Shown: in pieces, positions 3,317 to 17,474 of the stretch | Position numbering within the stretch: position 1 is the first letter of the stretch | Layout of the letters: the number at the start of each line of letters is the position of its first letter | Origin: Sulfurimonas lithotrophica | GTDB lineage: Bacteria > Campylobacterota > Campylobacteria > Campylobacterales > Sulfurimonadaceae | Assembly (NCBI RefSeq): GCF_009258225.1 | Contig: NZ_CP043617.1 | Span: 1-64,000 of the forward strand | Length of the DNA stretch: 64,000 bases | Reading direction: 5' to 3' | Notes under the pieces: generated by a model | What the model saw: the letters and a program-made list of their open reading frames with translations, nothing else | The model's database searches: none | What the model was told of the DNA's origin: nothing | Position numbers and translations under genes: made by a program

Positions 3317-5052
3317 TCTAAATACTTTTTTAATATAGTTATTAAAGATTCATTATTTATAGGTTTAGCTAAATAATCATCAAAACCTTCTTCTATATAC
3401 TTTTCTCTGTCCCCGCTAACGGCATTTGCGGTTAAGGCTATAATCGGTGTTTTATTTTCAAAATCTTTTTGATACTCTTTTATACTTTTCATAGCTTCAA
3501 GACCGTTTTTGTTTGGCATATTTATATCCATAAAAACCATATCGTATTTTTCTTTTTTAAAGTAGTTTTCTGCTTCTAATCCATCATTTGCCATTGTAAT
3601 ATCTATATCCATATCGTCAAGCAACAACTTAATAAGCATTTGGTTTGTTTTGTTATCTTCTACAACAAGTATGCTTTTATTTTCAAAACGATGAATATCT
3701 TCAGTTGTAGTTAACTCTTCCTCATTGCTATCTAAAACTTCAATATCTATAGTAAAGAAAAATCTACTACCTTTGCCTAGTTCACTCTCTATATGCAATT
3801 CACTGCCTAAAAGTTTTAACAGTTTTAGTACTATAGAGAGACCAAGCCCTGTTCCACCGTATTTTCTAGTTATAGAAGTATCCGCTTGTATAAACTCTTG
3901 TGTTATAGAAGATATTTTTTCTTTTTCTATCCCTATCCCTTCATCTTTTATCTCTATGTATAAAGAAGACTCAGCTCTATTAAACTTAACTATAAATTCA
4001 ACTTCATTATTTTCATGGGTAAATTTTATTGCATTAGAAATCAGGTTTGATATTATTTGTTTTAATCTCAGTTTATCGGTTTTTATGTTTTTGGGTAATT
4101 TATTTGAAATTGAATTTACTAGAGTAACTCCATTCTCAGATGCTGCTTCACTGTATAGTTCATATATATTATCAAGTTCTTTTTTTGGATTAAACTTTGT
4201 AAATTCAAGTGAAAATTTTCCGGATTCTATTTTTGAAAAATCTAATATATCGTTTATGATGTTTAACAGTGAATATGAGGATTGATCGATAGTATTAAGA
4301 TATTTTAAACGTTTACTATCTTTTTCGGTTTTTTTAAGAATTTTTATAAAACCTATTATTGCATTTAGGGGTGTTCGTATCTCATGCGACATTGTTGATA
4401 AAAAGTTTGACTTAGCTTCTGCAGCTCTATTTGCTTCATCTGCCTTTACCTCTAATTTTTTGATTAAATCTTGATTTCTATAGCTTAAAGATATAGAATT
4501 TATAACTAATTTATTCATTTTTTTTGAACTGGCAAAGGAAAATAATATATAAAGAAATAAAGTTATAAAAAGAGGATTATATATAGGGTTGTCCATAGTA
4601 GTAATAATATACATAAAGGGTGTCATAGTAAGAATAACAAAACTGATATATAGTTTATTGTTAGTAGCTAAACTAGCCGAAGCCGTTGATGTAAGTCCAC
4701 CAAGCATCAGAACCAAGAAGATTTGATATACGATACTTTGGGGTAATATAACAAAAGGAATAACACCCCAAACAGTACCGGATGTTATAAGTGAGATTGC
4801 AAAATAGAATTTATATTTTTTAAAATTTTTTTTGTTGATTTTAACGGAGGAGTATTTTTTTGCCAAAAATAAACGTGCTATAACCATAAAAACAATGAAG
4901 AGATACCAGATATTTAAATTTATATCCGGCACTTCACCTCTTAGTACAAAAAATATAACAGTTGCTACACCAAAAAGACCTAGCGTTGACGAATTTAGAT
5001 TATCATATAAATAGGCAAGTTCTTTATGCTCTAAATAATCTTTTTTTTCCAC
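3313..5052 (-). CDS. Membrane-bound hybrid sensor histidine kinase with C-terminal receiver
   Basis: A 579-aa protein. About six hydrophobic segments cover residues 20-190 and form a membrane sensor with no large periplasmic domain. A short coiled coil leads to the HisKA domain, with phospho-accepting His in [19 protein letters not shown] near residue 222. The HATPase_c domain follows with an N-box ([11 protein letters not shown]) and [10 protein letters not shown] receiver domain has Asp near residue 507 in [11 protein letters not shown]. The start is GTG at 5052, with an AAGGG ribosome-binding site about 5 bases upstream. No cognate phosphotransfer protein is adjacent, and the stimulus is unknown. 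Confidence 0.93.
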
Positions 5053-13085: not shown

Positions 13086-13994
13086 TTGCCATTTAAACTA
13101 AAGCGTTTTTATAGTCCGACAAAACAAAGAGCTTTTAAATTTCTTGTAAATGAACTCGGCATCTCTCAAAAGCAATCTCAACGAGATATTGCAAACGGTA
13201 GGTTATTCATAGATGGTAAAGCTATGACAAAACCAACTGCTGAAGTTGAAGGTCATTTTGAATTTGTAGTTTATGAACCAAGTACCAGAGGGTTAAAACC
13301 TATTAGAGTAGAAGATAAGTTTGTTGTCTTTGATAAGCCAAGTGGTGTATTGATTCATCCTCAAAATAGAAATACGGAATACTCATTAGTAGATGAACTA
13401 AAATATCAGTTTGGGTTAGATGCAAATATAGCACATAGAATAGATCAAGAAACAAGCGGACTAGTTTTGTGTGCCAAAGATAAGCAAAGTGAGAAAGATA
13501 TAAAATCTATGTTTGAGTTTCGTGACATGAATAAAACTTACTTAGCTTTAGTCCACGGAAACTTTGAAAATGAGATAACTATAGATGAACCTTTACTTAG
13601 ACGTGAAGATGAAAGTGCTATCGTTAGAATGGTTGTGAAGGTTCATAAAGATGGTAAAGCATCTAAAACATATTTTAACCCGTTAGAGTATTTTCCAAAA
13701 GCAAATATGACCCTAGTTGAGTGTAAACCATATACTGGAAGACAGCATCAGATTCGTGTACATTTGTTTCATGTGAAACATCCAATAGTCGGAGATCCAA
13801 TTTATGGACAAAAAGAAGAAGATGTACTAAAATTTTTAGATAAAAAAATATTTGAACATGAGAGAATAAAACTTAGTGGAGCATCCAGACTTATGCTTCA
13901 TGCATCTGAATTAGAATTTGATTTATATAATAAAAACTATAAGATATCCAGTAAAGAAGATTTTTTAAACGAAGTATATAAAGTAGTGAAATAA
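13086..13994 (+). CDS. RluA/RluD-family pseudouridine synthase
   Basis: A 302-aa RNA pseudouridine synthase. The N-terminal S4 RNA-binding domain is at about residues 20-75 (LGISQKQSQRDIANGRLFI). The catalytic motif is AHRIDQETSGLVLCAK, with catalytic Asp in HRIDxxTSG. The C-terminal motif is GRQHQIRVHL. The start is TTG at 13086 with an AAAAGG site 8 bases upstream. The exact rRNA or tRNA target cannot be told from sequence alone. A near-perfect parS site is embedded in its coding sequence at 13765-13780, read as the peptide LFHVKH. Confidence 0.92.
   Translation: MPFKLKRFYSPTKQRAFKFLVNELGISQKQSQRDIANGRLFIDGKAMTKPTAEVEGHFEFVVYEPSTRGLKPIRVEDKFVVFDKPSGVLIHPQNRNTEYSLVDELKYQFGLDANIAHRIDQETSGLVLCAKDKQSEKDIKSMFEFRDMNKTYLALVHGNFENEITIDEPLLRREDESAIVRMVVKVHKDGKASKTYFNPLEYFPKANMTLVECKPYTGRQHQIRVHLFHVKHPIVGDPIYGQKEEDVLKFLDKKIFEHERIKLSGASRLMLHASELEFDLYNKNYKISSKEDFLNEVYKVVK
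13765..13780. promoter_or_regulatory. parS-like ParB-binding site inside the pseudouridine synthase gene
   Basis: The 16-mer TGTTTCATGTGAAACA is a perfect palindrome except at its centre. It differs by one base from the widely conserved bacterial parS TGTTTCACGTGAAACA. Its reverse complement is identical to the site at 16648-16663. Position about 12 kb from dnaA agrees with known origin-proximal parS clusters. The parAB genes are not in the window. Confidence 0.8.
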
Positions 13995-14874: not shown

Positions 14875-14982
14875 CTAATCTTCTTTAGAATCATTAGACG
14901 TAGCTACTTTCATAAAACCAATAACACCTACTGCAAAAACAGCTACTAAAAATATTATTTGAAATATTTCAATATAACTCAT
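14875..14982 (-). CDS. Small membrane protein (35 aa)
   Basis: A short ORF encoding [20 protein letters not shown], then [15 protein letters not shown]. It has one transmembrane helix at about residues 5-25 and a charged C-terminal tail. Its ATG overlaps the rlmN TGA (ATGA, 4 bp) and has an AAGGA site 6 bases upstream within the rlmN end, so translational coupling is likely. I do not recognise the family. Similar one-helix peptides accompany respiratory complexes, but there is no such gene next to it. Confidence 0.65.
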
Positions 14983-16055
14983 GAGATTTCCTTATTTTTT
15001 TCTTTTAGCTGTCCACATGCAGCAGATATATCTATACCTTTTGAATCTCTAATTGTACATAATAAACCATGTTTTACAAGATACTCTTGAAAGTTGAGCA
15101 TATCTTTTAGTTCAGGTCTGTTATATGTAGTTCCGGGATAAGGATTAAAATATATCAGGTTTACTTTTGCCTTGATTCCGTGCAAAAGTTTAACTAATTT
15201 TTTCGCAGATGCTAAATCGTCGTTTTTATCTTTGATAACCAGATATTCAAACATAACACGCTTACGGGTATCTATAGGAAAGCGTTTAACAGCTTCTATA
15301 ATAGAGTTAATATTGTGAGCTTTATTCATAGGGATAAGCTCGGTTCTTAACTCATCATCTACGGCATGAAGTGATATAGCTATATGTACACCTAAATCCA
15401 TTGCACCCAGTTGGTCTATTTTATTGCTCAGTCCACTTGTAGAAACTGTTTGGCGTTTACCGCTTATAGAGAGTCCGTCTTCTTCTTTAAATATCTCTAT
15501 AGCCTTAGCCAGGTTATTTAGATTATCCAGAGGTTCACCCATACCCATATATACTATATTTATTTTACGGTTGTGTTTGTGAGCATTATCACGCTTAAGC
15601 GCAACAACTTGACCCACAATCTCCCCTGCACTCAAATCTCTTGTAAACCCACCTTTAGCCGTTAAACAAAAAGCGCATCCCACTTTGCATCCGACTTGTG
15701 TGGATACACAAATAGTATATTTTGCTTCATGGATAAGCTTGCCTGATTCATCGTAAACATCATCTTTCATTTTAAGCCATACTGCTTCTACGGTTTTACC
15801 GTCTTGAAGCTCAAAAAGATATTTTACTGTTCCATCAGAGGATACTTCTTTTTTTATTATTTTTAATGGATTAACTATATATTTTTTAGCTAGTTCTTCC
15901 TTTAAAGACTTAGGAATATTTTTCATATCATCATACTCAGATGCATAGTTATGGTATAACCAGCCCAGTATTTGTTTTACACGAAAGGAGGGTTTTATAA
16001 TGTCTAAAAGTTCTTTTTTTGTAAAGTCAAGAAGAGACGGTTTTAGCTCTGTTAT
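14979..16055 (-). CDS. rlmN: 23S rRNA/tRNA adenine-C2 methyltransferase RlmN, with apparent non-canonical start
   Basis: Radical-SAM methyltransferase acting on 23S A2503 and tRNA A37. The cluster motif is CKVGCAFC (CxxxCxxC), with GEPLDN after it and a final Cys in ISAACGQL. The first ATG (15926) would remove 43 conserved-looking codons, including a segment reading [18 protein letters not shown] and [16 protein letters not shown], which is typical RlmN N-terminus. An in-frame stop lies just upstream. Between it and the conserved part there is no ATG, GTG or TTG. The start must be ATA at 16055 (overlapping the upstream TAA as ATAA) or ATC at 16061 (6 bases after AAGGA). Full length is then about 358 aa. 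Confidence 0.85.
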
Positions 16056-16594
16056 ACTGATGTTAGTTCCTTAATTCTTTTTTTGACATGCTCAGTCAAG
16101 AGTTCTTTCGCTTTTGTATGATTATCCAAAAAATCTTTATGAGCATTTTTGTTAGTATAATTTGTTACACAAAAAACACCGCCTGCAGGTATATTAAACT
16201 CCTGAGCAATTTTTAAAACAGAGTAAAACTCCATGTTTTCAATTTCTACTCCAAACTTTAAAAACTTTTTTGTTTGCTCTTTACATGTAGATATATAGTT
16301 AGATGAGTTTACTATAATATCTTGAGTGTTAGTTGTGTTAGTTGATACGACGTTGTCCAAAGGTGTATATGCACAAGAATCTAAAAACCCTAACTCAATA
16401 TTAGAAGCCGTTTTAGATTCTATAATGTCAAATATCTCATGCTTACCATAACTTCCTGCAGTTCCTACAAACAGTAAAAATTCCGGTTTATCAAATAAAC
16501 AAAGGCGTGTTATGTTCATTGCAGATTCTATAAGACCTACTCCCATTGGAGTTGCAAAATCAAAAGTTTCGTTATTTCCGGCGCAGATAATTAT
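16052..16594 (-). CDS. Purine nucleoside phosphorylase/nucleosidase-like protein, with apparent AUA start
   Basis: A short member of the PNP/UDP phosphorylase superfamily (about 180 aa, shorter than the usual 230-250). Motifs include [25 protein letters not shown] with the conserved ENME substrate motif, and a C-terminal [10 protein letters not shown]. The first ATG (16546) sits inside the family core. The frame extends upstream through [15 protein letters not shown], which resembles the family N-terminus. No ATG, GTG or TTG exists before the in-frame stop. ATA at 16594 lies exactly 6 bases after an AAAAAAGGA ribosome-binding site and is the best start. It is followed by rlmN with a 4-bp overlap. 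Confidence 0.78.
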
Positions 16595-16647
16595 GGTGTA
16601 TCCTTTTTTGTAGTTATTATTTAGTAGTATAACTTTAGCAATTTAAA

Positions 16648-16663
16648 TGTTTCACATGAAACA
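16648..16663. promoter_or_regulatory. parS-like ParB-binding site
   Basis: TGTTTCACATGAAACA differs by one base from the bacterial parS consensus TGTTTCACGTGAAACA. The palindrome extends to 10-bp arms (AAATGTTTCA/TGAAACATTT). It lies between hisF and the nucleosidase gene. A degenerate third copy (three mismatches) sits at 16694-16709. With 13765-13780 this makes an origin-proximal parS cluster. Confidence 0.85.
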
Positions 16664-16715: not shown

Positions 16716-17474
16716 CTAAAGTCTTACTGCTATACCTTCATCATTTAGATAATGTTTTAAATCCATTATATCAATCTCTTTATAGTGAAAAATACTTGCT
16801 GCAAGTGCTGCATCTGCACCATGATTAAATGCATCTTTTATATGTTCCATAGTACCTGCCCCACCGCTGGCAATAACAGGCACGTTTACAACGCTGGAAA
16901 TCTGCTCTGTAATGTTAAGTTCAAATCCTGCTTTTGTACCGTCTGCATCCATAGAGGTTAAAAGTATTTCACCGCTTCCACGATCAACTACTTCCTTAGC
17001 CCACTCAACTGCATCTATACCGGTATCGACTCTACCGCCGTTTAAATAAACATTATAAGAATCGCCTGTTTTTTTAACATCTATAGCAGTAACGATGCAT
17101 TGTGAGCCAAAACGTTTTGCACCTTCATTTATAAGTTCAGGACGTTTTATTGCAGCAGAATTAACACTAACTTTATCGCAACCTACGTTTAAAAGTTTGT
17201 AAATATCGTCAAGTTTTCGGATTCCGCCACCGACAGTTAATGGAATAAAAATTTCACGTGCAACTTCTGCCACTATATCAACTATAGTATCACGGTTGTC
17301 ACTAGATGCAGTTATGTCTAAAAAGGTAATTTCATCAGCACCCTCTTGATTATAACGTTTAGCAACTTCTACCGGATCCCCCGCATCTTTTAAACCGACA
17401 AAGTTAACACCTTTAACAACTCTACCGTCTTTGACATCAAGGCAGGGGATAATTCTCTTTGCAAAGTAATTCAA
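16716..17474 (-). CDS. hisF: Imidazole glycerol phosphate synthase, cyclase subunit HisF
   Basis: Cyclase that converts PRFAR and ammonia to imidazole glycerol phosphate in histidine synthesis, with HisH (not in the window). It is a TIM barrel of about 252 aa, with [20 protein letters not shown] at the start (catalytic Asp) and the second Asp in [11 protein letters not shown]. Phosphate-binding glycines are in VIASGGAGT. The frame opens at GTG 17480, but TTG at 17474 has better spacing to AAGG (7 bases) and gives the usual N-terminus, so I prefer it. A parS site lies just downstream. Confidence 0.95.

Follow-up and report, generated by a model that had tools for sequence, protein, structure and literature searches.

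The window, that is, the whole stretch of 64,000 nucleotides that we analysed (positions 1 to 64,000 of contig NZ_CP043617.1 of Sulfurimonas lithotrophica), carries on its minus strand a gene that we take to be hisF, a nucleosidase-like gene and rlmN, with the following features.

16716..17474, minus strand: hisF, as we presume, with a TTG start; lies upstream of the nucleosidase gene on that strand, 121 nt from its start
16648..16663, no strand: parS-like palindrome between hisF and nucleosidase, in the nucleosidase leader
16601..16609, minus strand: Shine-Dalgarno (SD) sequence AAAAAAGGA, 6 nt ahead of the nucleosidase ATA
16052..16594, minus strand: nucleosidase-like gene (Pfam PNP_UDP_1 superfamily), 180 residues long if it starts at ATA 16594-16592
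16592..16594, minus strand: ATA at the homologous start position, the ATG column in relatives; ATA, ATA and ATT in the three clade members
16591-16589, minus strand: ATT, the next codon and an alternative near-cognate start
16544..16546, minus strand: first canonical in-frame ATG of the nucleosidase gene, rejected as a start
16068..16073, minus strand: rlmN SD sequence TAAGGA, 12 nt ahead of the rlmN ATA
16052..16055, minus strand: ATAA overlap, in which the rlmN ATA and the nucleosidase stop TAA share two bases
14979..16055, minus strand: rlmN (23S rRNA/tRNA methyltransferase; TIGR00048), with an ATA start at 16055-16053
13765-13780: second parS-like palindrome, found as a match within the window

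At the nucleosidase start the minus strand reads AAAAAAGGA, TACACC, ATA, ATT, ATC, TGC. The frame is open from 48 nt upstream of the ATA, and ATG, GTG and TTG are all absent from it until ATG 16546-16544, exactly 16 codons in when counted from the ATA, which agrees with the preliminary description, according to which the upstream stop is reached before any canonical codon. The ideal SD that it had placed 6 bases ahead of the ATA is present as well, and among 188 SD-matched starts (279 confident starts in the genome sample) 6 nt was the commonest spacing (48/188); the spacing to the adjacent ATT is 9 nt, which is common too (24/188). The start region is weakly structured (z +1.1). An AAAGGA is conserved in all three members of the clade described below, and the rest of the hisF-nucleosidase spacer shows gaps and changes. 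With the start 121 nt after hisF, there is no stop/start overlap at this gene. The internal ATG 16546 was rejected as a start, as it would drop 16 conserved residues and no SD-like site was seen ahead of it. A frameshift from an upstream start was likewise rejected: in this genome and in the comparison genome G015 (locus L002), the other two frames hold no canonical start running into the nucleosidase start point. In a third genome, G002 (locus L003), TTGs lie in the nucleosidase frame at 30 and 72 nt ahead of the start, and the gene there could start at one of them. Thus, in two of the three species no canonical start reaches the gene, and the full-length product there would need a near-cognate start.

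The nucleosidase-like gene belongs, on its Pfam match, to the PNP/UDP phosphorylase superfamily: PF01048 scored 41.4 bits against a curated cut-off of 25.1, with a match that covers residues 105-172 only. The NCBIfam equivalogs for MTA/SAH nucleosidase and futalosine hydrolase all fell below their curated cut-offs (22.9 bits against 169, 18.8 against 73.8 and 30.2 against 124.7). A sequence search of the PDB returned weak matches only, to MTA/SAH nucleosidases (best E 0.025), and the predicted structure was too poor for fold comparison (mean pLDDT 42.5).

A homologue of this gene was present in 55 of the 60 genomes searched. In 30 fetched loci, one from this genome and 29 from others, the position of ATA 16594 is occupied by ATG in 27, by ATA in this genome and in G015, and by ATT in G002. 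When homologues were compared over the extra 16 residues, as the preliminary description had proposed, the residues aligned and the codon facing the ATA was ATG in 79 of the 80 related loci compared, which were the best of 115 confirmed and overlap the set of 30. The sole exception was L031 (JAPHSI010000246.1, Sulfurimonadaceae bacterium N3D-Bin_8), which has the start sequence of G015 and is the same case; in four further loci the mismatch is an effect of the alignment alone, ATG standing at least one column away. In one metagenome-assembled homologue (L095:10001-10537) we observed an internal stop codon, reflecting either a broken gene or an assembly error. The clade members closest to this genome, two other species from other assemblies, share 92% and 87% protein identity with it. 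All three have ATT at nucleosidase codon 2, and codon 1 varies between ATA and ATT.

The N-terminal codons are under purifying selection. Within the clade, nucleosidase codons 2-16 show 0 amino-acid changes and up to 3 synonymous ones; beyond the first 16 codons, dN is 0.05-0.09 and dS 1.1-1.4. Eight of the first 16 positions (I2, C4, A5, G6, E9, F11, F13 and A14) are invariant in 40 aligned sequences (the window and 39 of the 80 loci, L095 having been dropped), so that the family-like N-terminus noted upstream of the first ATG is borne out, and on this alignment the 16 N-terminal residues are part of the nucleosidase protein. Between L001 and L003, codons 2-16 are identical at 15 of 15 positions and 75 of the 164 later codons differ; this identity hints at an extra constraint at the nucleotide level near the start.

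The preliminary description had also remarked that the neighbouring rlmN shows the same feature, and so it does. The gene scored 429 bits against TIGR00048 (RlmN), above the curated equivalog cut-off of 290. Its first canonical codon is codon 44, counting from ATA 16055-16053, and the ATG of relatives lies at or within three codons of that ATA. All three clade members have ATA at the start and no ATG within six codons. Among 27 other loci, 14 place ATG at the codon that is ATA here, 11 have it three codons further in, and one locus each has it a codon earlier and two codons later, so that the rlmN start is spread over five codons among relatives and there is no single fixed codon. Within the clade, rlmN codons 2-43 have a dN of 0.07-0.08 and a dS of 0.9-1.5; the outgroup value of L002 versus L004 was not used, as gapless pairing had spoiled it. 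The relative L004 has AAGGA before its rlmN ATG at the same spacing of 12 nt, and its overlap reads ATGA (by eye), from which one G-to-A change would give TGA to TAA and ATG to ATA together. A spacing of 12 nt is uncommon (7/188 SD-matched starts); an ATC exists 6 nt from the rlmN SD, inside the overlapping coding sequence. The rlmN start region is not unusually open (z +0.9; z -1.9 in G015). When 78 rlmN homologues were surveyed, L031 and L055 alone were without a canonical start near the column. In L055 (Sulfurimonas sp. OB5, about 3956-3976), ATC is a possible start, after an upstream TAG, and this seems to be an independent loss of the start in the same gene.

A third gene with an ATA start lies elsewhere in the genome.

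L114:122-646, genome C1:420122: GreA/GreB-family gene (gre), ATA start

Both of its Pfam domains are above cut-off (PF03449, 73.3 bits; PF01272, 82.0 bits). The start is ATA in all three clade members, where it overlaps the upstream stop as ATAA, so that the start codon of both rlmN and gre lies within the stop of the preceding gene. Among 17 other orthologues of 66-77% identity (ten more distant paralogues, L290-L299, were set aside), 13 have ATG, GTG or TTG at the start codon and 1 carries its ATG a codon earlier. Three genus members outside the clade, L273, L276 and L283, have ATT at or beside the start codon, within an ATTAG or ATTAA stop overlap (by eye), and an ATG four codons downstream. 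Such a downstream ATG is found in 16 of the 17 orthologues and might be the true start there; the clade codon at that position is ATC, ATC and ATA in the three members, which leaves no canonical start there either. Within the clade, gre codons 2-18 show no amino-acid change and 6-7 synonymous changes, and the start region is not unusually open (z -0.4). Taken over the three species, the conserved starts carry no in-frame ATG, GTG or TTG (in G002, the nucleosidase TTGs lie upstream), and the codons kept are ATA/ATA/ATT in nucleosidase, ATA three times in rlmN and ATA three times in gre, with dS of about 0.8-1.5 in the main part of these genes.

When we compared the starts in 1.264 Mb of this genome (G000) with those in 1.14 Mb of G031, 7 of 367 assessable genes were flagged in G000 and 4 of them held up on inspection: rlmN, nucleosidase, gre and a family-2 glycosyltransferase. 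Smaller comparison runs returned the same genes. The glycosyltransferase (L305:13875-14705, genome C1:713875) lacks a canonical start around its conserved N-terminus; a codon that is probably ATC, or else ATA, stands behind AAGGGG. This was seen in this genome only, and the G031 orthologue has TTG. The three other flags (C1:1146036 and ORFs in the blocks that begin at 1860001 and 1980001) were rejected, each having a plausible ATG of its own that follows a chance extension of the alignment. In the reverse control 5 of 365 G031 genes were flagged, none convincingly (L159 was left open). The two genomes do not differ significantly in this respect (Fisher p 0.12), and the four G000 cases include the two genes from which we started. 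In the loci surrounding this region, 771 gene instances from 81 genomes were scanned and 9 flags were raised, four of which were set aside (L050 was masked; L051, L095 and L099 were interrupted or partial). After inspection, a canonical start was lacking in 4 of 27 clade instances versus 1 of 744 others (p = 6e-6, a descriptive value only, as the same two genes, taken from two related genomes, account for the clade instances). A genome-wide shift in the code or in start codons was rejected: with 4 of 367 assessable genes affected, the trait is rare, which argues against a code change.

As to the initiation machinery, there are two initiator tRNA genes, both with a CAU anticodon and both keeping, by eye, C1xA72 and GGG/CCC pairs, which we take to be initiator tRNA features; nothing evident points to an altered initiator tRNA as the cause, and that candidate was rejected. 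Of 38 genomes, 37 have initiator tRNA homologues. The divergent second copy recurs unchanged in G002, and the search of G015 found the common copy only. The gene for IF3, infC, was found in 40 of 41 genomes, and its start codon is UUG in each of the 18 genus members read, including this genome (L212, G000:C1:2278052-2278552, minus strand). The IF3 sequence has four clade-distinct frame positions (6, 48, 75 and 78), two of them set against a uniform residue in 15 other genus members: E to K at 75 and K to Q at 78 are found in the clade only, and the 15 others all have E and K. Positions 75 and 78 presumably fall in the linker. Apart from these few clade-only substitutions, IF3 and the initiator tRNAs look ordinary at the sequence level, and the coincidence of the substitutions with AUA starts is a correlation only, which we keep as a lead.

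We consider it very likely that, in this three-species clade of the Sulfurimonas group, nucleosidase, rlmN and gre have no canonical start and are initiated at near-cognate AUN codons, with an output that would be low and perhaps IF3-sensitive. The codon would be AUA in this genome, with AUU possible for nucleosidase. The CAU anticodon of the initiator tRNA would pair correctly with two bases of AUA and be mismatched at the third position. For nucleosidase, a well-spaced SD with little structure would offset part of the loss due to AUA; for rlmN and gre, termination-reinitiation at the ATAA stop/start overlap would do so. The resulting low, possibly IF3-sensitive output may keep the nucleosidase, RlmN and Gre proteins scarce. 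Which codon is used, the low output, a selection for low output and a control by IF3 are what we infer from the comparison of genes and genomes.

Several other explanations were weighed against near-cognate initiation. That the ATA is a sequencing or assembly error, or a mutation of a single strain that has not been fixed, might be entertained since AUA starts are rare and draft assemblies carry single-base errors. However, the same state is found in two other species, in other assemblies, at a dS around or above 1 and in several genes, and we regard this explanation as close to impossible. The preliminary description had left the choice between a real non-canonical start and such an error or unfixed mutation; the loss of ATG in two further species, in two neighbouring genes and a third, together with purifying selection on the N-terminus, favours the real start. 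It is very improbable, too, that these are decaying genes or that translation begins at internal ATGs and yields proteins lacking their N-termini. An in-frame ATG does occur at codon 17 of nucleosidase and at codon 44 of rlmN, but the N-termini are under purifying selection, invariant residues precede the nucleosidase ATG, no SD-like site was seen ahead of either internal ATG, and rlmN started at codon 44 would lose most of its RlmN_N match (residues 8-59). The retention of ATA/ATA/ATT in three species at a dS of 1.1-1.4, along with unchanged codons 2-16, makes an error, a pseudogene and an internal start all unlikely. For nucleosidase, AUU may be the true start: translation would begin at the adjacent codon 2 (16591-16589), and the AUA before it would be a decayed former ATG. 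This codon is ATT in all three clade members although codon 1 is not fixed, its SD spacing is still a common one, and AUU starts are documented for E. coli infC and pcnB in the part of the literature accessible to us. The ATG of relatives, however, aligns with codon 1, 6 nt is the commonest spacing, and rlmN and gre have ATA without a neighbouring ATT, so that we find a start at the AUU rather unlikely.

A neutral loss of the starts competes more seriously with selection for low output, and we see it as a real possibility, short of an even one. Weak starts would simply be tolerated where little product is needed, IF3 having no regulatory role, and a start one substitution from ATG could be such a tolerated decay. 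At an ATGA overlap, the G-to-A change that removes the start also turns TGA into TAA, the commonest stop (235/377 genes); since the two changes come together, the loss of the start may be stop-driven or due to mutation bias. Against this, ATG has not returned in three lineages and three genes at a dS of about 1 or more, where one substitution would be enough, an argument weakened by the small number of lineages. More speculatively, the subclade may have relaxed its start-codon discrimination, such that AUA is a tolerated fourth start that can be fixed at several genes, the IF3 substitutions at 75 and 78 being cause or accommodation and ATAA overlaps the preferred entry route; we hold this to be improbable.

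Reconstructions of start-codon switches reportedly rest on annotated starts. Among 61,358 ancestral AUG starts in 36 genome groups, the accessible text of one such study lists a single switch to AUU and no switch to AUA (PMC5622118), and the word AUA is absent from its text. As far as that text goes, three cases kept within one small clade, two of them adjacent, are thus unusual. AUA starts are already known in bacteria, and the present ones, as further examples, stand out in that a clade shares them, they are long kept and they occur in partly adjacent genes. The published literature covered by our search, with most subscription papers outside it, gave no report of AUA starts in Sulfurimonas, and the accessible part of a C. 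jejuni profiling paper mentions neither AUA nor AUU (PMC11955535).

The closest known cases, as far as the accessible parts of their reports describe them, are in S. aureus, where infC, ccpN and citZ start with AUA and cvfC1 with AUU; three of these starts were tested and gave about 10% of AUG, with ccpN reaching up to 30% in rich medium, behind an extended SD (PMC13009471). The likeness lies in AUA or AUU behind a strong SD and, for ccpN and cvfC1, in conservation among related species. The S. aureus starts, however, are based on initiation profiling, with reporters for three (PMC13009471), whereas ours are deduced by comparing sequences, concern other genes and belong to another phylum, and two of the three clade sites are stop/start overlaps, which sets them apart from the S. 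aureus cases. The AUU starts of E. coli infC and pcnB, in what we could consult of that literature, resemble the clade in having an AUN start with low or IF3-dependent output, and AUU occurs here in G002; unlike E. coli infC, the infC of the 18 genus members has UUG, and IF3 dependence is here predicted at most. According to the accessible portion of another study, IF3 represses near-cognate starts in E. coli and Streptomyces (PMC5472188). The Streptomyces sigR start, GTC and coupled to rsrA, is likewise described there as a rare operon start codon that limits output, but it is GUC and not AUA, and sigR has a regulatory partner pair of which none is known here (PMC5472188). Finally, rlmN and gre start inside the upstream stop, as in termination-reinitiation at ATGA overlaps, except that the clade overlap is ATAA with a near-cognate start; ATAA is absent from the main text of that report (PMC6728339).

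The ATG relatives and the AUA clade offer a natural comparison of when bacteria can afford, or prefer, a weak start. A gene caller limited to ATG, GTG and TTG would make the nucleosidase 16 residues too short and RlmN 43 residues too short.

A promoter scan of the hisF-nucleosidase spacer found 1 candidate versus 1.7 expected. The palindromes at 16648-16663 and 13765-13780 (TGTTTCACATGAAACA and TGTTTCATGTGAAACA), which we presume to be parS sites, had no further match in the 1.264 Mb genome sample. At least one such palindrome occurs in 61 of the best 80 related loci, and the one in the nucleosidase leader is present in all three clade members.
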